Of a stretch of 64,000 nt of DNA, positions 7,141 through 58,257 are shown in pieces. This stretch comes from Candidatus Aminicenantota bacterium (GTDB taxonomy: Bacteria > Acidobacteriota > Aminicenantia > Aminicenantales > Aminicenantaceae): positions 123,096-187,095 of the forward strand of contig JAFGMO010000028.1 in the NCBI GenBank assembly GCA_016927475.1, read 5' to 3'. Position 1 is the first letter of the stretch. Each line of letters starts with the position of its first letter. The notes beneath the pieces are model-generated. The model was not told the origin of the DNA. It saw nothing but the letters and a program-made list of their open reading frames with translations, and searched no databases. The translations under genes and the position numbers were made by a program.

Positions 7141-9678
7141 TTATTCTTCCGGTTGTCCCTTCCTGTTATTCTTTTCCGATCTCAATACAATTTCCCGCCT
7201 GCTTAAAGCATATATCGCATCATCACAGCCAAAAGCCTTTTGTATAATATCCTGGATTCGCGTAGGCCGGTCAACCCGGTAACTAAATCTCAGCCACAAA
7301 AATTTATTTTCTTCATCGAAGCCGATTTTTTCTATAGGCCCCCTTCCATTGTCCACACCCCAGGAATCTAAAGCACTGTATATCATTTTTCTTTTTTGAG
7401 GAATTTTTCCTTTCATTTCCGGGCTTGCCGTTTCAAGAACATAAACAGCCGCTTCCAGATCGTCATTCAACTTTGGTGTGCCGGGCGGCAACTGTTTGAT
7501 ATCTGAAAACATCAAACCTTTCGGTAAAAAGCCATTTATTCTGTCGAGAAAGGCGCTTTTGCTAAAAGAATTTTGGGACGAAAAATCCAATCGTTCCGCA
7601 TATCCCTTCATTCCCAAAGGAAGCGCCGGAAGATAGGATATCTTCATTTTTGGGTGAAATCCCTGGGTACAAACAACGGGAATTCCCGCTCTTCTCAAAG
7701 AACGTTGGATGGCATTACTCATTTCAAGATGAGAAAGAAACCTGGCATCTCCTGTTTTTTCGTATGTCGCCCGGTAGGATACAACATCCTCTGACTTATC
7801 TCCAAAATCAGAAAATTTCAAAGCGGCTGTTTCCATTTTTCTGCCGAAATCCCTCTCTATAAGATGGGGGACATCACATCCGAGGCAATCCCCGCATTTT
7901 TTTTCCCAACAGGATAGAGTGAAAATTTCTCTTTTTGACCTCTCCCATTCACTAAGAAGATGAACTTTTTTGATTCCCGTCCTGATATGATCCCAAGGCA
8001 GGTTTTTATCCAAGGGAATCGCATTGAGAAATGTTTGAGGATCAACTCCGACCTTTTCAAAAGCCTCCAGCCAGATATCAAAATCGAACTTATCTCCCCA
8101 GCTGTCAAAACGGACGCCTTTCTTCCATGCTTCGATAAGAACGTCATTCAATCGCCTGTCACCCCGCGAAAAGATTCCTTCAAGAACAGAGTTTTTAAGC
8201 GGATGTTGTCTGATTTTGACCTTACGATATTTTTTCAGTTTATTTCGCAAATAGTGATGTTTTTCTTTCAGAATATCTTCCTTTTCCATGGCCAGCCACT
8301 GAAAAGGCGTATGCGGTTTCGGTATAAATGATGATATGCTGATATTCAATCCCGGAGAAACATTTTGATAGCACCGTCCAATTTTTATAATTTCATCCAC
8401 CATACGAATGATCCCATCAAGATCATCTTCTGTCTCTGAAGGAAGGCCGACCATAAAATAAAGTTTGATAAGTTTCCACCCTCTTGAGAATATTTCGGCT
8501 ACAGCCTGGAATATCTCTTCATCTTCCAAACGTTTGTTGATAACCCGCCTCAACCTCTCCGTACCGGCCTCGGGAACAATGGTAATCCCCGTTTTTCTAA
8601 CCTGAAGGATATTCTCGACAACCTTAGCTGAAAGTCCCTGTGGACGAAGGGAAGACAGGGAAAGGGAAATACTTTTTTCCTTAAATCCTTCCATCAACGT
8701 TTCAACCAGTTTTTCCAGATAAGGATAATCACTGATCGAAAGAGAAGCCAAGGAGGCCTCATCGTATCCCGTGCACTTCAGGCTTCCGAACGTGTTTTTT
8801 TGCACAAAACAGGGGTCTTTGATCCTGGGAGGAAAATATATGCTGAAAGCCTGGCAGAATCGGCAACCTTGAGGACAGCCTCTGGCCGCCTCTATGGATA
8901 CCCTGTCGAAAACGGCGGAAACATGAGGAACGATAATTTTTTCAGGGAAAAACGATCTATCAAAAGGATGTTGGATTCGTTTCCGGATGAACGGAGGAGT
9001 ATCAGATTTCGATGTGACCACCTTAAGTCCACCAGGATAAGATAGTCTGGTTTCGTAAAAACGGGGAACATATACTCCATGAATAGACGATAACTCTTTT
9101 AACAGTTCCTCTCTGTTCCCCTTTTTTCCTCCGTATCCGGCAATTTTATCCAATATTTCCAGAAAACCTTCTTCCCCGTCGCCGATCAAAAAAAAATCAA
9201 ATATATCCGCTACAGGCTCGGGATTAAATGCGGCGGGACCTCCGGCTCCGATTAGAGGGTGTCCTTCTTTTCGGTCCTCGGAACGAAACGGAATTTTTCC
9301 CAAATCCAGAATGGTAAGCACATTGGAATAATTGAGCTCATAAAGAAGGGAAAAACCCAGCAGGTCAAACTCATAAAGCGGTCTGCGGGTTTCGAGGGAA
9401 AACAAAGGAATATGATGAGAACGCAATTCATCTTCCATATCTTCCCATGGAGCAAAAACACGTTCCGCAGCATATTCCGGATAACGGTTGATAAGCGCAT
9501 ACAGTATTTTCTGTCCCAAATAGGACATTCCGACCTCATAGAGGTCCGGAAAAACGAGGGCGACCCTGGCCTTCACCCGGCTGGAATCTTTAACAATGCT
9601 GTTGAATTCTCCGCCTATGTATCTGCCCGGTTTTTGGACTTTTTTCAGAATCTCCGTTATGTCGCCTTTTCTGTTCAT
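7141..9678 (-). CDS. TIGR03960-type radical SAM protein fused to a TIGR03936 domain
   Basis: An 845-residue two-part protein. The N-terminal half has a B12-binding-like region (VALVFPDLYEVGMSYLG) followed by a radical SAM barrel whose cluster ligands are CPQGCRFC (Cys268, Cys272, Cys275). A CGDCLGC cluster follows in the linker. The C-terminal 210 residues (from YRATYEKTGDARFLSHLEM; includes QGFHPKMKISYLPALPLG) match the TIGR03936/DUF2344 domain, a separate protein in some lineages. The reaction is not established; the family often neighbours cell-shape and ribosome genes, as here beside rodA. The ATG start at 9678 has only a weak ribosome site. Confidence 0.9.
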   Translation of the reverse strand: MNRKGDITEILKKVQKPGRYIGGEFNSIVKDSSRVKARVALVFPDLYEVGMSYLGQKILYALINRYPEYAAERVFAPWEDMEDELRSHHIPLFSLETRRPLYEFDLLGFSLLYELNYSNVLTILDLGKIPFRSEDRKEGHPLIGAGGPAAFNPEPVADIFDFFLIGDGEEGFLEILDKIAGYGGKKGNREELLKELSSIHGVYVPRFYETRLSYPGGLKVVTSKSDTPPFIRKRIQHPFDRSFFPEKIIVPHVSAVFDRVSIEAARGCPQGCRFCQAFSIYFPPRIKDPCFVQKNTFGSLKCTGYDEASLASLSISDYPYLEKLVETLMEGFKEKSISLSLSSLRPQGLSAKVVENILQVRKTGITIVPEAGTERLRRVINKRLEDEEIFQAVAEIFSRGWKLIKLYFMVGLPSETEDDLDGIIRMVDEIIKIGRCYQNVSPGLNISISSFIPKPHTPFQWLAMEKEDILKEKHHYLRNKLKKYRKVKIRQHPLKNSVLEGIFSRGDRRLNDVLIEAWKKGVRFDSWGDKFDFDIWLEAFEKVGVDPQTFLNAIPLDKNLPWDHIRTGIKKVHLLSEWERSKREIFTLSCWEKKCGDCLGCDVPHLIERDFGRKMETAALKFSDFGDKSEDVVSYRATYEKTGDARFLSHLEMSNAIQRSLRRAGIPVVCTQGFHPKMKISYLPALPLGMKGYAERLDFSSQNSFSKSAFLDRINGFLPKGLMFSDIKQLPPGTPKLNDDLEAAVYVLETASPEMKGKIPQKRKMIYSALDSWGVDNGRGPIEKIGFDEENKFLWLRFSYRVDRPTRIQDIIQKAFGCDDAIYALSRREIVLRSEKNNRKGQPEE

Positions 9679-9734
9679 ACCTGCTCTTTTTATATTTTCA
9701 AACCGTCCCCTTTCTGGATGGAAATGCAGGTGTT

Positions 9735-9990
9735 ACCTGCGTTATACACGAGCCAAGCTTGCCGCAGATGCGAGGCGTCGATGGGCGAAGCTGTGCTGGT
9801 TCAACGCGAGTCCATCGCAACGAAACAGATGCGGTAAGATCGGCTTGCCCAAAGGGGAAATTTGGCCGGCATTTTCTTGAAAACGAACATGGAAAATGTT
9901 TCATTATTAATTTTACCGAAAACCATCATTAAATGACACATAATATTGAAATTATCTGTTGGTGTCGTCCAAATTTCTGAATAATGCAGG
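9735..9990 (+). repeat. Dispersed structured element, copy 2 (long form)
   Basis: Begins ACCTGCGTTATACACGAGCC and ends at CTGAATAATGCAGG directly against the rodA stop codon (TTA 9991-9993). Internal stem CGATGGGC/GTCCATCG. The inner inverted repeat is GAAATTTGG/CCAAATTTC, where other copies have TAAATTTGG/CCAAATTTA, so both sides changed together. The small stem CCC-AAA-GGG replaces CCT/AGG of other copies. Confidence 0.92.
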
Positions 9991-49278: not shown

Positions 49279-49556
49279 CACACCTTCCTTTTTTCAAATC
49301 TTCGTTTCTTTTTGAAAGCACCTGAACAACATTTTTCGGCTATTATAATATAAAAATGTACCTGCAACCAGCTTTAGGCGGATCATCTCAAAGGAAAGAA
49401 CCATAGTTCATCAAATTTCGTATAATATTAACAAGATTAATGCGATATTTCTTATGAAGAAAAAAATCTATTATTTTTTCCCATCATCCGGTAGCATTTA
49501 TTCCCCCTTTATGTGTTCTATCATTGGAAACGAAAATTGAAAAGTGGAGATTTGCC

Positions 49557-51830
49557 ATGAAAAAACATTTGATATTTATACTCACCATCTTTTTAGCCAC
49601 AAGCTGTTTTTTCCCTCTTTTAGCCTCGGGACGAGAAAATCAGATAACCACAAAAAGATACGCTATTGCCGTCGGAGCCAATGATGGAGGCCCAAACCGG
49701 ATAAAACTTCTTTATGCTGTATCGGATGCCCGTTCCTTGATCGATCTTTTTCAAGAAATGGGCGGTGTTTTGGATAATGACAGTTATATCCTTTCCGATC
49801 CGGACAAAAAGACTTTTTTTACCGTTCTGGAAAAAGTCAAAAATCAGGTTTCAACAGCCCGGTCCGAGTACGGCCGAGTGGAGTTTCTTTTTTATTATTC
49901 CGGACACTCGGACGACGAAAACATACTCATTGGCAATGAGAAAATCCCCTACCGTGATTTGCGGACTGAAATACATAGCATTAATGCTGACCTTCACATC
50001 GCTGTTCTCGATTCCTGCGCATCAGGCGCTTTCGCCCGAATCAAAGGAGGCAAAAAAAAGTCTCCCTTCCTAATGGACGCCGCCTACAGCATGAAAGGTT
50101 ATGCCTACATGACTTCCAGCTCTTCGAATGAATCCTCTCAAGAATCCGACCACTTAAAAGCCTCATTCTTCACTCATAATCTTATTGCCGGTATGCGCGG
50201 GGCTGCGGATTCCAATCAGGACGGCCGGGTCACTTTGAACGAAGCTTATCAGTATGCTTTTAACGAAACCCTCACTCAAACGGAAAAAACCATGAGCGGC
50301 CCTCAGCATCCCAACTACAACATCCAGATGATCGGAACAGGCGATGTGGTCATGACGGATATCCGTAAAAGTTCGGTTGTTCTCACCATCGATAAAAATA
50401 TCAGCGGACGTATCTTCATTCATGATCAAAACAACGTCCTAGTTATTGAACTCAACAAACCGCAGGGACGACCCATTGAGCTGGGACTGGCGGAAGGGAA
50501 ATACAGAATAACAACCGTCAGCGAAGGATCCATATACGAATCACGGATTGAGCTCCGTCCAGGAGAAGATTTCTTCTTGGCTGCAGATCTTCTCCAAGAA
50601 ACGGAAAAAATTCCCGCCACGCCCCGCGGTATAAAAAGCAGTCCTCAGAGGATTTACAACGACCAGAACCTGGTGGATGTCCCCTTCAATTTTTCCTTTA
50701 TTTCCTTTCCCCCTATGAATTCCCGGTCCGTTCACCACGCTTCTTTTGCACTGATCTCATCCCACTGTGCTTATCTCGAAGGAATCGGCCTGAGTGCATG
50801 CTTTCAATTTGTCGACAAAGACGCCTCATTCGCACAGTTTGCTGGCCTGGCAAATATAACCGGAAGGAATATGCAATACATCCAGATGGCCGGGACATTC
50901 AACATCACGGGCCGTCTGATGGACGGCGTTCAGGCAGCCGGCGCTTTCAACTACACTCATGAACGTGTTACCGGAATCCAGATGGCCGGAGCGTTTAATT
51001 ACACCCGGCTTTTGGAAGGAATCCAGACGGCGGGAGGATTAAACATTGTTTTGGGGCATGTGTCGGGAGGACAGGTTTCAGGGGGCTTGAACGTCTCTGC
51101 CTCCCTATCGGGAGGGCAGGTTACCGGCGGCGGCAACATCGTTGCGGGCGATGTCACAGGCTTCCAAATTGGAGGAGGATTTAACCTGGCTCGCAATGTT
51201 TGCGGTGTTCAACTGGGAACGCTCAATATAGGCCGGGATATCGAAGGTGCACAGATCGGAGTCATCAATATCGGCCGCATCGTCAAAGGATTCCAATTGG
51301 GTGTGATCAACATTTCTCAAAGAATGGATCATACCTCTCTGGGTCTTATCAATTTCATCGCCCAGGGAAAAACCCAGTTCGATATATGGGGAGATGAGCT
51401 GGGATTCTTGAACTTCGGTTTTCAGCACGGAAACGGCCGTTTTTACAATCTTTATACGGCCGGTTTCAACAGCGCATTCAACCGTTATCTTTTCGGCTGG
51501 GGATACGGATACAACTGGAATCAACAAAAAAGTTTTTTCATCAGCAGCGATGTTATGGCAAAATCCGTTTTTCCCAAGTACGATTGGTCATGGCCGGCCC
51601 TTTGGATTACTCTGCGCCTTTCGCTGAATGTGTCCCTTTCGAAAGGTTTTTCCCTTTTCGGAGGAGGCTCCTATAATTATTTTTATACATCGAACGAGGT
51701 CACCCTGGATGAACCGTTCCATGGAAGCTTACTGAGTTGGAGTTCAGACAGGCACCGTCACTGGCTTGGCCTTTTTGCGGGAATAAAAATTCTTCTTTCA
51801 GACCGGACTTTACGAAAAGATTTACCCTGA
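49557..51830 (+). CDS. Caspase-domain protein with EF-hand-like loop, repeat solenoid and barrel-like C-terminus
   Basis: About 757 residues from ATG 49557 (GGAGA 7 bases upstream; track start 11 codons earlier). Order: signal peptide (1-25); C14 caspase domain with the catalytic dyad His117 (YYSGHSDD) and Cys154 (LDSCASGAF); a Ca-binding-like loop DSNQDGRVTLNE at about 218-229; a linker to about 385; about ten repeats of 18-20 residues (425-615) of the type GxQxAGxxNxxxxxxxG, resembling leptospiral LA_2272-type surface repeats; and a C-terminus of alternating hydrophobic strands (GWGYGYNW, LWITLRLSLNV, GLFAGIKILLS) that looks like outer-membrane barrel. Function unknown; a surface or periplasmic caspase-like protease is likely. 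Confidence 0.85.
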   Translation: MKKHLIFILTIFLATSCFFPLLASGRENQITTKRYAIAVGANDGGPNRIKLLYAVSDARSLIDLFQEMGGVLDNDSYILSDPDKKTFFTVLEKVKNQVSTARSEYGRVEFLFYYSGHSDDENILIGNEKIPYRDLRTEIHSINADLHIAVLDSCASGAFARIKGGKKKSPFLMDAAYSMKGYAYMTSSSSNESSQESDHLKASFFTHNLIAGMRGAADSNQDGRVTLNEAYQYAFNETLTQTEKTMSGPQHPNYNIQMIGTGDVVMTDIRKSSVVLTIDKNISGRIFIHDQNNVLVIELNKPQGRPIELGLAEGKYRITTVSEGSIYESRIELRPGEDFFLAADLLQETEKIPATPRGIKSSPQRIYNDQNLVDVPFNFSFISFPPMNSRSVHHASFALISSHCAYLEGIGLSACFQFVDKDASFAQFAGLANITGRNMQYIQMAGTFNITGRLMDGVQAAGAFNYTHERVTGIQMAGAFNYTRLLEGIQTAGGLNIVLGHVSGGQVSGGLNVSASLSGGQVTGGGNIVAGDVTGFQIGGGFNLARNVCGVQLGTLNIGRDIEGAQIGVINIGRIVKGFQLGVINISQRMDHTSLGLINFIAQGKTQFDIWGDELGFLNFGFQHGNGRFYNLYTAGFNSAFNRYLFGWGYGYNWNQQKSFFISSDVMAKSVFPKYDWSWPALWITLRLSLNVSLSKGFSLFGGGSYNYFYTSNEVTLDEPFHGSLLSWSSDRHRHWLGLFAGIKILLSDRTLRKDLP

Positions 51831-52829: not shown

Positions 52830-54125
52830 ATGATTTTTACAAAAAAGAAGCCAAAAAAAAGAGTCCTGGTAATCGGACTGGATGGTGTCCCCTATTTCCT
52901 GTTGAAAGATCTGGCACAACGGGGTGTTATGCCCTATGTTGCCTCTCTCATCGATGAAGGTTTTCTTCACAAGATGAAAGCAAGCCTTCCCGAGATATCC
53001 TCGGTAAGCTGGACAAATTTCATGACCGGATCCAATCCCGGGCAGCATGGGATCTTCGGCTTTACGGATTTCAAACCGGATTCTTATGATATCCGTTTTC
53101 CAAACTTTCTTGATGTGAAAACGGAAACATTTTGGGATATCCTCGGCCGTGAGAACAAAAAATGCATCATTATCAATCAACCGAGCACTTATCCCGCCCG
53201 CAGAATTAACGGCATTTTGATAGCAGGTTTTGTCGCTCTAGAGCTTTCCAAAGCACTTTACCCGCTTTCTTATAAGGCAGCATTGGATAAAATCCCTTAC
53301 CAGATTGACATTGATACCATGAAAGCCCGGGAAAACCATGAATTCCTCTGGACGGACTTGATACGAACACTTTATGGACGTCAAAAAGCCATGGAGCTGC
53401 TCTGGAATGAAGACTGGGATTACTTTGAATTTGTCATCACGGGAACAGACCGTCTGCAGCATTATCTGTGGAACGCCTACGAAGACACATCACACAACCA
53501 CCATGAACGCTTTTTCGATTATTACCAAAAAGTCGACAACGTTATCGGAAAAATCGTTTCTTCCTTTCGCAAGCTGTCCAAAGACAATGGGCGGTTGTAC
53601 CTCCTTTCCGATCATGGTTTCACCGGTATCAAACAAGAAGTCTACCTCAATACCTGGCTCATCAAGAAAGGATATCTCGAAACGCCAAATTCCTCTCCAA
53701 AAAGCTTATCCGACCTCTCCCCTTCTTCTCTCGCTTTTGCCTTGGATCCCAACCGGATTTATATCAACCGAAAAGACAGGTTTCCCAAAGGCTGTGTCAA
53801 GCCGGATGAAATATTTTCCTTGAAACGCGAGCTTACCGAAAAGCTGGAAAAATTAGAATACGAAGGTTCGAAAGTTGTCCATAAAGTATTCGATACGCAG
53901 GAAATATATTCAGGCCCGCAATCCGAGCACGGACCGGACCTCATCGTTCTTTCGGAAAAAGGTTTTGATATGAAAGGCTCGATCAAAAAGAATGAAATCT
54001 TCGGGCGTTCAGACCTCCAGGGCATGCACACCTGGGACGACGCTTTTTTCTGGGCCGAAAACGAATATGGCGCCGATCTTTCCATTCAGGATCTGGCAAA
54101 AATTCTTTTGGAACAGTTTTCATGA
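52830..54125 (+). CDS. Alkaline phosphatase superfamily enzyme 1 (cytoplasmic)
   Basis: A 431-residue type I phosphodiesterase/nucleotide pyrophosphatase-like protein without signal or membrane helix. The metal-binding start VLVIGLDG (Asp18), the nucleophile region SSVSWTNFMTGSNPGQHGIFGF (in part), and LLSDHGFTGI match the superfamily. TDRLQHYLWNAYED is shared in pattern with the next two proteins (TDxLQHMFxR). It is the shortest of the three paralogues and lacks the WSGDH motif of the other two, having HTWDDAFFWAE instead. It overlaps enzyme 2 by 4 bases. Substrate unknown. Confidence 0.88.
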   Translation: MIFTKKKPKKRVLVIGLDGVPYFLLKDLAQRGVMPYVASLIDEGFLHKMKASLPEISSVSWTNFMTGSNPGQHGIFGFTDFKPDSYDIRFPNFLDVKTETFWDILGRENKKCIIINQPSTYPARRINGILIAGFVALELSKALYPLSYKAALDKIPYQIDIDTMKARENHEFLWTDLIRTLYGRQKAMELLWNEDWDYFEFVITGTDRLQHYLWNAYEDTSHNHHERFFDYYQKVDNVIGKIVSSFRKLSKDNGRLYLLSDHGFTGIKQEVYLNTWLIKKGYLETPNSSPKSLSDLSPSSLAFALDPNRIYINRKDRFPKGCVKPDEIFSLKRELTEKLEKLEYEGSKVVHKVFDTQEIYSGPQSEHGPDLIVLSEKGFDMKGSIKKNEIFGRSDLQGMHTWDDAFFWAENEYGADLSIQDLAKILLEQFS

Positions 54126-56278
54126 ATCCGACAGATAAAAACACACGAAACAAAACAGTCCTCAGCGTTATTCTTTTAACGGCCTGCATGAGCATACCTC
54201 TGCAGGCTTATATCGGACCGGGGGCCGGATTTGCTTTTCTCTCCTCTTTTCTGGTTCTTTTTCTGACTTTTTTTCTGGCTCTTTTTTCTTTTCTTTCCTG
54301 GCCCTTCAGGTTGATCGGACGGCTCATCAAAGGACAGAAAGCCTACAAAAAAAGCAACATCAAAAAACTGGTCATCATCGGCCTGGATGGTTTAGAACCC
54401 ACACTTGTTGAAAAATACATGGACCAGGGAAAACTTCCGCATTTATCGGAGCTCAAAAAGGAAGGATCCTATTCACGCTTGGAAACGACGATCCCCTCCA
54501 TATCTCCGGTTGCCTGGTCCTCATTCATGACAGGCTGCCATCCGGCTAAACATAATATTTTCGATTTTTTAAGCCGCGATCCCAAGACATATCTTCCGGA
54601 CCTATCATCAGCACGGATAGGCCAACCAAAACGCACCCTATCGCTTGGAAAATTCAGGATTCCGCTTTCAAAACCGGAAATAAAAGGACTCAGAAAAAGC
54701 GTTCCTTTCTGGAAGATACTGGGAGATAACGGGATTTTCAGCACTATTTTAAAAATTCCAATCACGTTTCCTCCGGAGAAATTCAAAGGACACCTCATCT
54801 CAGGGATGTGCGCGCCCGATCTGAAAGGAAGCCAGGGCACTTTTTCTTTTTATACGTCCGATCCAAAGCAGGTCGTCAACCGGGAAGGGGGTGTTATCAT
54901 CCCGGTCTCCCAGAATGGAAATATCATCAAGACATTTATCTCCGGCCCGGAAAACACCCTTCTCAAAAACCCGAAGGAATTAACACTGCCACTGGAAATA
55001 GACATTGATAAAAATCATAATCAGGCAGTTCTCAAAACGGACTCCCAAAAGATCTGTTTGAAGCAGGGTATGTTCTCGGAGTGGATAAAACTAACTTTCA
55101 AACCCGGACTAGGTATAAAAATAAGATCAGTCTGCCGGTTTTATATCACAAGCCTGGAACCTCACTTTCAAATGTACATGACACCGCTCAATATCGACCC
55201 TGAAAAACCTGCCCTCCCCATCTCTCATCCTTTTATCTATTCGGTCTACCTGGGGAAATTACTGGGAAGCTTCACCACATTAGGAGAAGCAGACGACACT
55301 TGGGCTCTGAATGAAGGTATTCTTTCCGAAGAATCCTTCCTCAAGCTGACCTATGATACCCACTCTGAAACAGAGGCCATGCTGTTCAACGCGCTGGATA
55401 AAACAAAAAGAGGTGTTGTCGCCTGTTGGTTCCAAGCAACGGACAGCCTTCAACACATGTTCTTTCGCTACCTGGACAAAACACATCCGGCTCTAAAATC
55501 CGGACAAACCAATAAAAGCGAAAAAGTCATCGAAGAACTCTACATAAAAATGGATGAACTGGTTGGCCGTGTCAGACAAAAGATAGACCGCAAATCGGTC
55601 TTGATCGTCATGTCCGACCATGGATTCAAGCTTTTTCGACGCGGCGTCAACCTCAATTCCTGGCTGTATCTCAACGGCTATCTTCACCTGAAAGAAGGGA
55701 AAAAAACCAGTAGGGAATGGTTCAAGGATGTGGACTGGACACGGACACGGGCATACGGCCTGGGATTGGGAGGTATTTATCTGAACATGAAAGGACGTGA
55801 AGCCCAAGGGATCGTCTCCCCAGGAGACGAAACAGCGGTCCTGAAAAAAGAGCTTTTCTCCAGGCTTTCGGGCCTTCGCGATGAAAAGGAAGACAAGGTC
55901 GCCATCAATAAAATTTACGACAAGGACAAACTGCCTCCGGGACCTTACAAAGATAACTGCCCGGATTTTATCGTCGGTTACAACGAAGGATACCGTGTTT
56001 CCTGGGATTCCGTAACCGGTAAAGTTAACGACACTCTTTTTGAAGACAACACAAAGGCCTGGAGCGGGGATCACTGCATCGATCCCCTTGTCGTTCCCGG
56101 GATATTTTTTTCCAACCAGGCTCTAAAGATAGAAAAGCCGTCCATCGTCGATATCGCTCCCACGGCCCTCGATCTTTTCGGCCTCAAACCGCCCAAACAT
56201 ATGGACGGCCGAATGATGATGGAGCCGGGGCTTTTTGATCCCGGAATAAAAAAAGATTCAAAGGAAAAAGAACAATGA
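54122..56278 (+). CDS. Alkaline phosphatase superfamily enzyme 2 (membrane anchored)
   Basis: A 718-residue protein. Two hydrophobic segments open it (about 13-32 and 37-60) around YIGPGAGFAFLSS; the Arg/Lys-rich stretch that follows (RLIGRLIKGQKAYKK) suggests, by the positive-inside rule, that the catalytic domain is cytoplasmic, unless the first segment is a cleaved signal. Catalytic motifs: LVIIGLDGLEP, PSISPVAWSSFMTGCHP, VMSDHGFKLFRR and WSGDHCIDP. A middle insertion of about 200 residues (PEKFKGHLISGMCAPDLKG onward) is shared with enzyme 3. It overlaps both neighbours by 4 bases (ATGA-type), so the three enzymes are translationally coupled. Confidence 0.88.
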   Translation: MNPTDKNTRNKTVLSVILLTACMSIPLQAYIGPGAGFAFLSSFLVLFLTFFLALFSFLSWPFRLIGRLIKGQKAYKKSNIKKLVIIGLDGLEPTLVEKYMDQGKLPHLSELKKEGSYSRLETTIPSISPVAWSSFMTGCHPAKHNIFDFLSRDPKTYLPDLSSARIGQPKRTLSLGKFRIPLSKPEIKGLRKSVPFWKILGDNGIFSTILKIPITFPPEKFKGHLISGMCAPDLKGSQGTFSFYTSDPKQVVNREGGVIIPVSQNGNIIKTFISGPENTLLKNPKELTLPLEIDIDKNHNQAVLKTDSQKICLKQGMFSEWIKLTFKPGLGIKIRSVCRFYITSLEPHFQMYMTPLNIDPEKPALPISHPFIYSVYLGKLLGSFTTLGEADDTWALNEGILSEESFLKLTYDTHSETEAMLFNALDKTKRGVVACWFQATDSLQHMFFRYLDKTHPALKSGQTNKSEKVIEELYIKMDELVGRVRQKIDRKSVLIVMSDHGFKLFRRGVNLNSWLYLNGYLHLKEGKKTSREWFKDVDWTRTRAYGLGLGGIYLNMKGREAQGIVSPGDETAVLKKELFSRLSGLRDEKEDKVAINKIYDKDKLPPGPYKDNCPDFIVGYNEGYRVSWDSVTGKVNDTLFEDNTKAWSGDHCIDPLVVPGIFFSNQALKIEKPSIVDIAPTALDLFGLKPPKHMDGRMMMEPGLFDPGIKKDSKEKEQ

Positions 56279-58257
56279 CTTCCATAAAAAGAAGAGATTT
56301 TATAAAGATGGGACTTACAGCAGGATCCCTTATGGCCCTAGGTGACGGACCCGGTATGATAACCAAGGTTTTTGGTAAAACCGAATCCCCGGTCCGCATG
56401 ATCATCCTTGGAATGGACGGCATGGACCCCCACTTGACCGATGTTATGATCAAACAGGGCAAGCTTCCCGCATTCGCCAAACTCAGAGCCATGGGAGATT
56501 TTATGTCCCTGAGAACAAGTTTACCACCACAGAGTCCTGTAGCCTGGTCCAATTTTATGACGGGGATGAATCCCGGCGGTCACGGCATATTCGATTTCGT
56601 CCACCGTGATCCTTCGAATTACACACCCACTTCATCCTCAGCGGAAACCAGCGGGGCCAGCCGCACACTGAACATCGGAAATCTTGTCCTGCCTTTATCC
56701 GGTGGAAAGGTCCAGCCCATCCGGAAAGGAAAAACTTTCTGGGAGCACCTTGAGGACCATGATATTCCGGCCACGGTTTTTAAGATGCCGGGAAATTATC
56801 CGCCCGCCCCCACCAATCAAAGAACAATCTCAGGAATGGGAACACCGGACCTGACCGGAAATTTTCGAAATTTTAACTATTACACGACTGAAGCGAGCGA
56901 GATGAAACCGGATATCGGCGGCGGTGAGATTCACGAAGTTTATGTTATCGGCAACAGGGTCGACGCCACTCTTCCGGGACCTGAAAATTCCTTCAAAAAA
57001 AGCCGGCCCAGGGCGACCATCGATTTTAAGGTTTTCCTTGATCCCGTCTACCCCGTGGCCAAGATTGCCATCCAGGACCACGAGATCATTCTGAACGAGG
57101 GGGAATGGAGCGACTGGATGCATATACATTTTGACATGATCCCCACCCAGAGCGCCGTCGGCATCTGCCGTTTTTACCTCAAACAGGTCCATCCTCATTT
57201 CAAGCTCTATGTCTCCCCCATCAATCTCGACCCGGCAAAACCCGCCATGCCCATTTCCACTCCAGAGAGTTATGCCCTTGAGTTGGCTGACAAGTTCGGT
57301 CCTTTTTACACGCAGGGACTCCCCGCAGACACCAATGCCCTGGACCACGGGGTGTTTACTGAAGAAGAATTTTTATCTCAAGATGATCTTGTACTTGAAG
57401 AACGTATCCGCATGTTCGACTACGAGCTCAAAAAATTCGAAACAGGCCTTCTCTTTTACTACCTTTCCAGCACGGACCAGCGCCAGCATATGTTCTGGCG
57501 TCTCATCGATAAAAAACACCCCTTTTATGATGAGAAGCTTGCCGCCAAGCTGGGAAACAGCATCGAAAACATTTATATCGAAGCGGATAAGCTTCTCGAC
57601 AAGGCCCTGTCCAAAGTCGACAAAAATACCATTATTTTTGTAATGTCCGACCATGGATTTTCCCCATTCAGACGCACCTTCAACCTCAACTCCTGGCTGA
57701 AACAAGCCGGATATCACACACTCATCGATGAATGGGCTCCCAGCGAAGCGTTTTTCCTGAATACGGACTGGTCGCGAACCCGGGCCTATTCTTACGGCAT
57801 AAACAGCCTTTATATCAATCAGCGGGGCCGTGAAGCACAGGGAATCGTCGCAGCCGGCCCGGAGAAAAAAGCTCTTATTCGGGAAATCATAACAAAACTT
57901 GAGTCCTACCGGGATCCTGAAACCGGGGAAATACCGGTTCTGAAAGCTTACGCCGCAACGGATGTATACACCGGTGAGGTTTTAGCCTCAGCTCCTGATA
58001 TTATCCTTGGCTTCAACAACGGTTACCGCATGGCCTGGGCTTCACCTCTAGGACGGATAACCGATAACATCATGGGCAATAACATGGAAAAATGGAGCGG
58101 GGACCACTGCATGGATCCCACCGTCGTTCCCGGAATCCTCTTCACCAACCGGAAGATCAGGGCCGAATCCCCTTCTCTCGTCGACCTGACGGCCACCGTA
58201 CTCAATACATTTGACATCAAACCCCCCAAAGAAACGCAAGGAAAACCGGTCTTCTAA
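56275..58257 (+). CDS. Alkaline phosphatase superfamily enzyme 3 (Tat-exported)
   Basis: A 660-residue protein with a twin-arginine signal (KRRDFIKMGLTAGSLMALG), so it is exported folded, probably with metals loaded. Catalytic motifs as in enzyme 2: IILGMDGMDP, PPQSPVAWSNFMTGMNP, VMSDHGFSPFRR and WSGDHCMDP. About 650 residues align with enzyme 2 from end to end, so one arose by duplication. It differs in localisation, which suggests that the two act on the same kind of substrate on opposite sides of the membrane. Substrate unknown. Confidence 0.9.
   Translation: MTSIKRRDFIKMGLTAGSLMALGDGPGMITKVFGKTESPVRMIILGMDGMDPHLTDVMIKQGKLPAFAKLRAMGDFMSLRTSLPPQSPVAWSNFMTGMNPGGHGIFDFVHRDPSNYTPTSSSAETSGASRTLNIGNLVLPLSGGKVQPIRKGKTFWEHLEDHDIPATVFKMPGNYPPAPTNQRTISGMGTPDLTGNFRNFNYYTTEASEMKPDIGGGEIHEVYVIGNRVDATLPGPENSFKKSRPRATIDFKVFLDPVYPVAKIAIQDHEIILNEGEWSDWMHIHFDMIPTQSAVGICRFYLKQVHPHFKLYVSPINLDPAKPAMPISTPESYALELADKFGPFYTQGLPADTNALDHGVFTEEEFLSQDDLVLEERIRMFDYELKKFETGLLFYYLSSTDQRQHMFWRLIDKKHPFYDEKLAAKLGNSIENIYIEADKLLDKALSKVDKNTIIFVMSDHGFSPFRRTFNLNSWLKQAGYHTLIDEWAPSEAFFLNTDWSRTRAYSYGINSLYINQRGREAQGIVAAGPEKKALIREIITKLESYRDPETGEIPVLKAYAATDVYTGEVLASAPDIILGFNNGYRMAWASPLGRITDNIMGNNMEKWSGDHCMDPTVVPGILFTNRKIRAESPSLVDLTATVLNTFDIKPPKETQGKPVF

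Follow-up and report, generated by a model that had tools for sequence, protein, structure and literature searches.

We describe an exported bacterial caspase that carries a repeat region and a predicted outer-membrane barrel, and that belongs to a widespread family whose genes lie, as a rule, directly behind those of an ECF sigma factor and its membrane anti-sigma factor. The gene, at positions 49557-51830 of a 64,000-nucleotide stretch of a Candidatus Aminicenantota genome (hereafter the window), is detached from any such pair, and a promoter of the type conserved upstream of the sigma genes of the family lies in front of it. The best explanation of these findings as a whole, to which we assign a probability of about 0.5, is that the protein is an outer-membrane orthocaspase in the regulon of an ECF sigma factor and cuts the anti-sigma factor that holds this sigma factor inactive.

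Results

Domain organization of the window protein

The open reading frame encodes a single polypeptide of 757 residues, whose features are listed in Table 1. The earlier note on this DNA had placed a His117/Cys154 dyad, an EF-hand-like loop within the caspase region, about ten GxQxAGxxN repeats and a barrel-like C-terminus in one exported protein, and each of these elements held up. Peptidase_C14 (PF00656) matches residues 34-229 with 29.8 bits against a gathering score of 21.4. This match, together with the His-Cys dyad and a likely acidic S1 pocket, places the protein in peptidase family C14 as an orthocaspase (p20 only). The best match in NCBIfam is NF047832, the EACC1-associated caspase, at 57 bits, below the cut-off of 140. 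A search of the PDB by sequence returned no relative. The full-length model, built with 48 sequences, has a mean pLDDT of 84.9; in it His117 and Cys154 lie where the core strands 107-118 and 146-154, respectively, end, and the head matches legumain with a Foldseek probability of 1.00 (E 3.8e-3).

Table 1. Features of the caspase gene and its upstream region (window positions)
Feature	Positions	Strand	Basis
ECF-type promoter: GTAGCA (49491-49496), 16 nt, GTGTT (49513-49517)	49489..49521	+	matrix and exact pattern
Likely ribosome-binding site, GTGGAG	49544..49549	+	sequence
Open reading frame, 757 aa: caspase, linker, GxQ repeats and barrel	49557..51830	+	ORF call, Pfam, model
Predicted N-terminal export signal, residues 1-25	49557..49631	+	sequence; predicted helix 2-21
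Caspase (C14) domain, residues 32-268	49650..50360	+	PF00656, E 6.1e-7; Foldseek legumain
Asp57, likely S1-pocket acid, counterpart of TbMC2 Asp95	49725..49727	+	74/74 aligned members; motif position
Catalytic His117, CAC	49905..49907	+	74/74 aligned members
Asp152, likely S1-pocket acid, counterpart of TbMC2 Asp211	50010..50012	+	74/74 aligned members; two before Cys
Catalytic Cys154, TGC	50016..50018	+	74/74 aligned members
EF-hand-like loop DSNQDGRVTLNE, residues 218-229	50208..50243	+	invariant residues; helix-loop-helix in model
Beta-rich linker domain, residues 270-350	50364..50606	+	predicted strands, pLDDT ~93
GxQxxGxxN repeats (LA_2272-like), residues 441-585	50877..51311	+	sequence; NF047436, 19 bits
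C-terminal strands, outer-membrane-barrel-like, residues 605-749	51369..51803	+	model, Foldseek

Export is predicted from the N-terminal hydrophobic segment; the residues LATSC at 13-17 form a weak lipobox at best, and one that is absent from the nearest relatives. By motif position, Asp57 and Asp152 are likely counterparts of Asp95 and Asp211 of TbMC2, which confer specificity for a basic P1 residue in metacaspases (PMC6426788). The domain may be an active protease.

Nine strict GxQ..G..N repeats begin at residues 457, 473, 488, 504, 519, 535, 550, 564 and 578, and a degenerate one lies near residue 441. Modelled alone, the tail reaches a pLDDT of 93.6 and a pTM of 0.85. Its best Foldseek neighbours in the PDB are outer-membrane barrels (NspA, Opa60, OmpA, porins and designed barrels), which mostly cover about 150 residues with TMq below 0.3, and no entry matches the whole fold (TMq at most 0.24); OmpX was matched as well. 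Matches from the viral library are barrels of the opacity-like and autotransporter types, with a best E of 2.9e-7 and with those of about 150 residues at 5.5e-5 and weaker. The Foldseek searches yielded no solved counterpart of the repeat part, which may be a solenoid or a meander. Repeats of the type GxQxGxxN followed by a barrel-like end also occur in the LA_2272 (NF047436) and VC2662 (NF047437) families, from which the window protein differs by the fusion of its repeats to a caspase; its NF047436 score of 19 bits is below the cut-off of 25 and leaves it outside that family. About a dozen genomes of the order encode stand-alone repeat proteins of the LA_2272 type. The present genome is one of them, and its protein scores 38 bits against NF047436 and is followed by ABC-transporter genes (G000:C68, loci L003 and L071).

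Location of the protease and the EF-hand-like loop

The predicted barrel would anchor the protein in the outer membrane and leave the protease on the periplasmic side, where domains that precede an OmpA-like barrel are normally found. Exposure of the protease on the cell surface, proposed in the earlier note, is not supported and is the less likely arrangement, since much shorter tails occur in the family and since the partner encoded with these caspases is an inner-membrane protein. Some relatives have tails of only about 150-200 residues, which leaves little room for export of the autotransporter type.

The loop is conserved in the family. Compared with the canonical EF-hand pattern, D-x-[DNS]-x-D-G with Glu at position 12, Asp218, Asp222 and Glu229 (loop positions 1, 5 and 12) are present in 74 of 74 aligned members, and position 3 is mostly Ser, Thr or Asn and is Val or Ile in nine of the 74. 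In the model, a helix at 204-216, a short strand at 224-226 and a second helix at 227-242 give the surroundings the geometry of an EF-hand. Pfam reports no EF-hand match in the window protein, and a weak one (E 0.068) in a paralogue of the same genome (L002). The loop may bind calcium. The further claim that calcium controls the caspase is not supported: the calcium sites of metacaspases are located elsewhere, in p20 and in the "280-loop" of p10, and the sole orthocaspase that had been characterised biochemically by 2017 was autoprocessed without further activation (PMC5756287).

A surface-displayed, calcium-gated caspase, possibly displayed in the manner of an autotransporter and with other cells or the envelope as its target, would account for the invariant loop positions, for their helix-loop-helix setting and for the autotransporter-type barrels among the viral-library matches. 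We consider it improbable, given that the tails of about 150-200 residues in close members suggest anchoring rather than secretion, that the family is tightly coupled genetically to an inner-membrane anti-sigma factor with a periplasmic domain, and that nothing points to gating of activity by the loop.

A widespread family with two kinds of tail

A scan of the genome collection with the single window protein gave no match, and relatives were found only with an alignment. A contig search with an alignment of heads recovered at least 558 relatives of the head in GTDB genomes. We fetched 80 loci, which include Aminicenantes, Spirochaetota, Myxococcota, Fibrobacterota, Fermentibacterota, Gemmatimonadota, Bdellovibrionota and others. 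The repeat-barrel tail is present in 47 of 73 readable proteins, from many phyla, and another tail in the remaining 26, mostly short and barrel-like or cut off by the end of the contig. Profile scores tell the two kinds of tail clearly apart. Along the head tree, the kind of tail switches about six times, and at least three of these switches are forced by well-supported branches; the window head itself falls in an Aminicenantes clade with 13 proteins that have the other tail (99% support). A second caspase of the family in the same genome (on contig G000:C11) has a different barrel-like tail and is 53% identical. Behind this second unit (locus L070), and behind its counterpart in another genome (G300, locus L062), genes for a TonB-dependent-receptor-like protein, a serine-carboxypeptidase-like protein and a barrel-like protein follow in the same order; the end of the last of these resembles the tail of the caspase.

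Within the order, the window protein alone has both the caspase and the repeats, stand-alone repeat proteins are common, and the genome encodes such a protein itself (29% identity). These observations would fit a recent local fusion, or a chimeric assembly, that joined a caspase to the stand-alone repeat protein encoded in this genome, a reading that is largely refuted and that we regard as very improbable. The fusion recurs in 47 of 73 named homologues across many phyla, and the window gene is a single open frame in the middle of its contig with a promoter of its own family. In the tail tree, the stand-alone repeat proteins of the order form a separate clade (99% support), outside which the window tail falls. 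We accordingly rejected both the idea that the fusion, which is not shared in 94 genomes of the order, is unique to this genome, since its tail is the commoner one in the family, and the idea that the tail was derived locally from the stand-alone repeat protein, which the tail tree contradicts.

Sigma and anti-sigma partners

Genes for an ECF sigma factor and a membrane anti-sigma factor lie directly upstream of the caspase at 61 of the 66 loci with enough upstream DNA, and the anti-sigma gene is present at all 66. Gene ends in these units usually overlap or abut. The sigma factor is a standard ECF protein (Sigma70_r2, r4_2), and the anti-sigma factor starts with a region of the sigma-binding type, which is followed by a single hydrophobic segment and by a C-terminal domain that matches DUF4384 below threshold (23.9 against 27 bits). 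Of 199 genomes searched in the phylum, only six contain a full-length match to the anti-sigma factor, and all six have a caspase head. In an Archangium genome of 13.8 Mb, a caspase adjoins each of at least seven relatives of the anti-sigma factor. One strong full-length anti-sigma match in Archangium lansinium (L199, 5.72 Mb) has no adjoining caspase, possibly another split unit.

The window caspase has no sigma or anti-sigma gene next to it; its neighbours are a divergent C69 peptidase gene upstream and a convergent nitroreductase gene downstream. Further along the window (52830-58257), three tandem genes encode related proteins like those of the phosphodiesterase/alkaline phosphatase superfamily, of which the second has a membrane N-terminus and the third begins with a twin-arginine-like sequence. 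Besides the pair that accompanies the C11 caspase, a second complete pair of sigma and anti-sigma genes, with no caspase beside it, lies on contig G000:C39 at about 52.7-54.1 kb.

A promoter shared by dispersed genes

Upstream of the sigma genes, across phyla, we found the pattern GTRNCR-N16-GTGTT (R = A or G). At least 10 of its 11 core positions are matched in 49 of 70 upstream regions, 45 of these with the exact spacing of 16 nt, compared to a mean of 3.1 and a maximum of 9 in base-shuffled control regions. A matrix was made from 38 non-redundant sites, with the window left out. The site that ends 36 bp before the ATG of the window caspase ranks first of 128,000 positions, with 18.0 bits against 12.5 for the next, and 60 Markov-1 windows contained no site of 18 bits or more (best 17.8). 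It is also the sole exact match to the pattern in the window, where 0.13 would be expected. Scans for sigma-70 promoters and terminators around the gene gave nothing beyond chance.

In the whole genome there are 12 exact matches, compared to 19 for a reversed control pattern, so that the number of matches lends no support and only their positions are informative. Three of the 12 are intergenic, and these lie before the window caspase, before the C39 sigma gene (15.2 bits) and before a gene for a GIN/DUF2807 lipoprotein on a third contig. This last site (G000:C29:43199-43225, locus L183), 29 nt from its gene, is the strongest copy found in the genome, at 23.5 bits. Two loci whose caspases are among the closest to that of the window encode a homologue of this lipoprotein: in L074 (39% identity) its gene immediately follows the caspase gene, and in L076 (46%) it comes after two further barrel genes. 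The simplest reading is that an ancestral unit of sigma factor, anti-sigma factor and caspase, joined in close relatives by the GIN-domain lipoprotein, has been split here into three loci, each of which kept the promoter. In L076 (Candidatus Aminicenantes bin112), two tandem genes behind the caspase (7607-9736) encode the linker domain and a short barrel without a caspase, and strong copies of the unit promoter occur at 7705 (25.4 bits) and 8848 (17.0 bits).

The C11 pair was set aside as a candidate controller of the window caspase, as the region upstream of its sigma gene has GGAGAA in place of GTRNC and lacks the canonical -35 element; because of this different -35, the C39 pair is the likelier controller. 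Upstream of the sigma genes of L081, L083 and G000:C11, GTGGAATTTT or GGAGAATTTT replaces the usual -35 while GTGTT is kept, and these variants suggest two sigma specificities in one genome. A pairing of the window caspase with C39 through congruent trees was also considered and dropped. By path distance, L074-L076 are closest to the window head, as they are to the C39 pair, but the branch of the head is without resolution, and AU tests did not reject a clade with the C11 caspase (p 0.23) while rejecting the clade of the window head with L074, L075 and L076 (p 0.013), so that no exclusive clade results. As the trees are neutral, promoter type and the missing caspase are what point to the C39 pair, which may well be the cognate of the window caspase.

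An invariant Lys-Gly in the anti-sigma factors

K150-G151 is aligned and invariant in 71 of 71 anti-sigma factors, with an Arg two positions before it in 58. Its median distance beyond the hydrophobic segment is 20 residues, and the rest of this linker is gappy and variable. Even the strongly diverged caspase-linked anti-sigma factors of Archangium keep the Lys-Gly, with Arg-Gly in one. Site-1 cuts of membrane anti-sigma factors fall in such a juxtamembrane position. Since the caspases keep the acids for a basic P1 residue and the anti-sigma factors an invariant Lys-Gly at the position of site 1, we propose cleavage after this lysine. The Lys-Gly could instead be a structural element of the periplasmic domain.

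Discussion

We propose the following circuit. The tail of the exported orthocaspase would fix it in the outer membrane and leave the protease in the periplasm, and the protein would be part of the regulon controlled by an ECF sigma factor that is now encoded, together with its anti-sigma factor, on contig C39. The tail or the head may sense the state of the envelope; the caspase would then cut the periplasmic juxtamembrane stretch of the anti-sigma factor after the invariant lysine of (R)xK|G, and the usual intramembrane proteolysis would remove the stump. The freed sigma factor would raise expression of its own genes, of the caspase and of the lipoprotein. Both the cut and the signal are conjecture. 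For the family at large, the idea that widespread outer-membrane-anchored caspases are the site-1 proteases of their own ECF anti-sigma factors, and thereby the receptor proteases of an envelope-sensing circuit, is tentative and less likely true than not.

Alternatively, the caspase could be an output of the sigma factor, cutting other envelope proteins in repair, remodelling or self-lysis, while another protease frees the sigma factor from its inhibitor. The shared promoter and the gene linkage fit this reading equally well, autolysis was suggested for the Myxococcus operons by Asplund-Samuelsson et al. 2012 (PMC3501461), and proteases of the DegS type cut known membrane anti-sigma factors, RseA among them (PMC10028731). 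We regard an effector role as plausible, at less than even odds. It leaves without explanation both the juxtamembrane Lys-Gly, invariant in all 71 anti-sigma factors, and the restriction of the full-length anti-sigma factor, among the phylum genomes searched, to those with a caspase.

The association of sigma-70 factors with metacaspases is already known. Operons of this kind were described in Myxococcus, Anaeromyxobacter, Haliangium, Sorangium, Ralstonia and Fibrobacter (Asplund-Samuelsson et al. 2012, PMC3501461), and they are the same kind of system as ours, with members from Myxococcota and Fibrobacterota in the present family. The passages of that paper on the operons mention no anti-sigma factor with a periplasmic domain, no barrel or repeat tails and no common promoter, and the window copy, unlike those operons, is detached from its sigma pair. 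The nearest precedent for the proposed mechanism is Craspase (CASP-sigma), where a caspase-fold protease likewise acts on the inhibitor of an ECF sigma factor: Csx29 cuts Csx30 and so relieves the inhibition (PMC10028731). That system is a cytoplasmic, RNA-triggered CRISPR system with a TPR-CHAT protease, whereas here the protease is an exported C14 domain, the anti-sigma factor is a membrane protein and no CRISPR genes were seen adjoining. Our proposal also resembles the RpoE system, in which RseA, likewise a membrane anti-sigma factor with a periplasmic domain, is cleaved close to the membrane on its outer side. The protease there, DegS, is a PDZ serine protease of the inner membrane, in contrast to the present candidate, an outer-membrane-anchored cysteine protease that is encoded with the anti-sigma factor in the family. 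EACC1-associated caspases (NF047832) are likewise bacterial C14 caspases; they have other operon partners, and the window protein scores far below their cut-off. A literature search on LA_2272, on caspases with an anti-sigma factor or DUF4384, and on barrel-bearing caspases returned no prior description of the arrangement; the ECF reclassification may already list such an ECF group. What is new is the promoter shared across phyla, the detached caspase that keeps it alongside the dispersed C39 pair and C29 lipoprotein, and the conjunction of the anti-sigma Lys-Gly with the S1 acids of the caspase.

The function of bacterial caspases is a long-standing question, for which cell lysis has been one suggestion in the case of the Myxococcus operons. 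The analysis presented here would give at least 558 related caspases a common address, in the periplasm on an outer-membrane tail, and a common controller, an ECF sigma factor. It names a concrete candidate substrate and the bond that may be cut. Because the promoter can be read from sequence, the rest of the regulon can be read from genomes. If the site-1 proposal is true, caspase-controlled release of sigma factors would exist outside CRISPR systems and would span many phyla.
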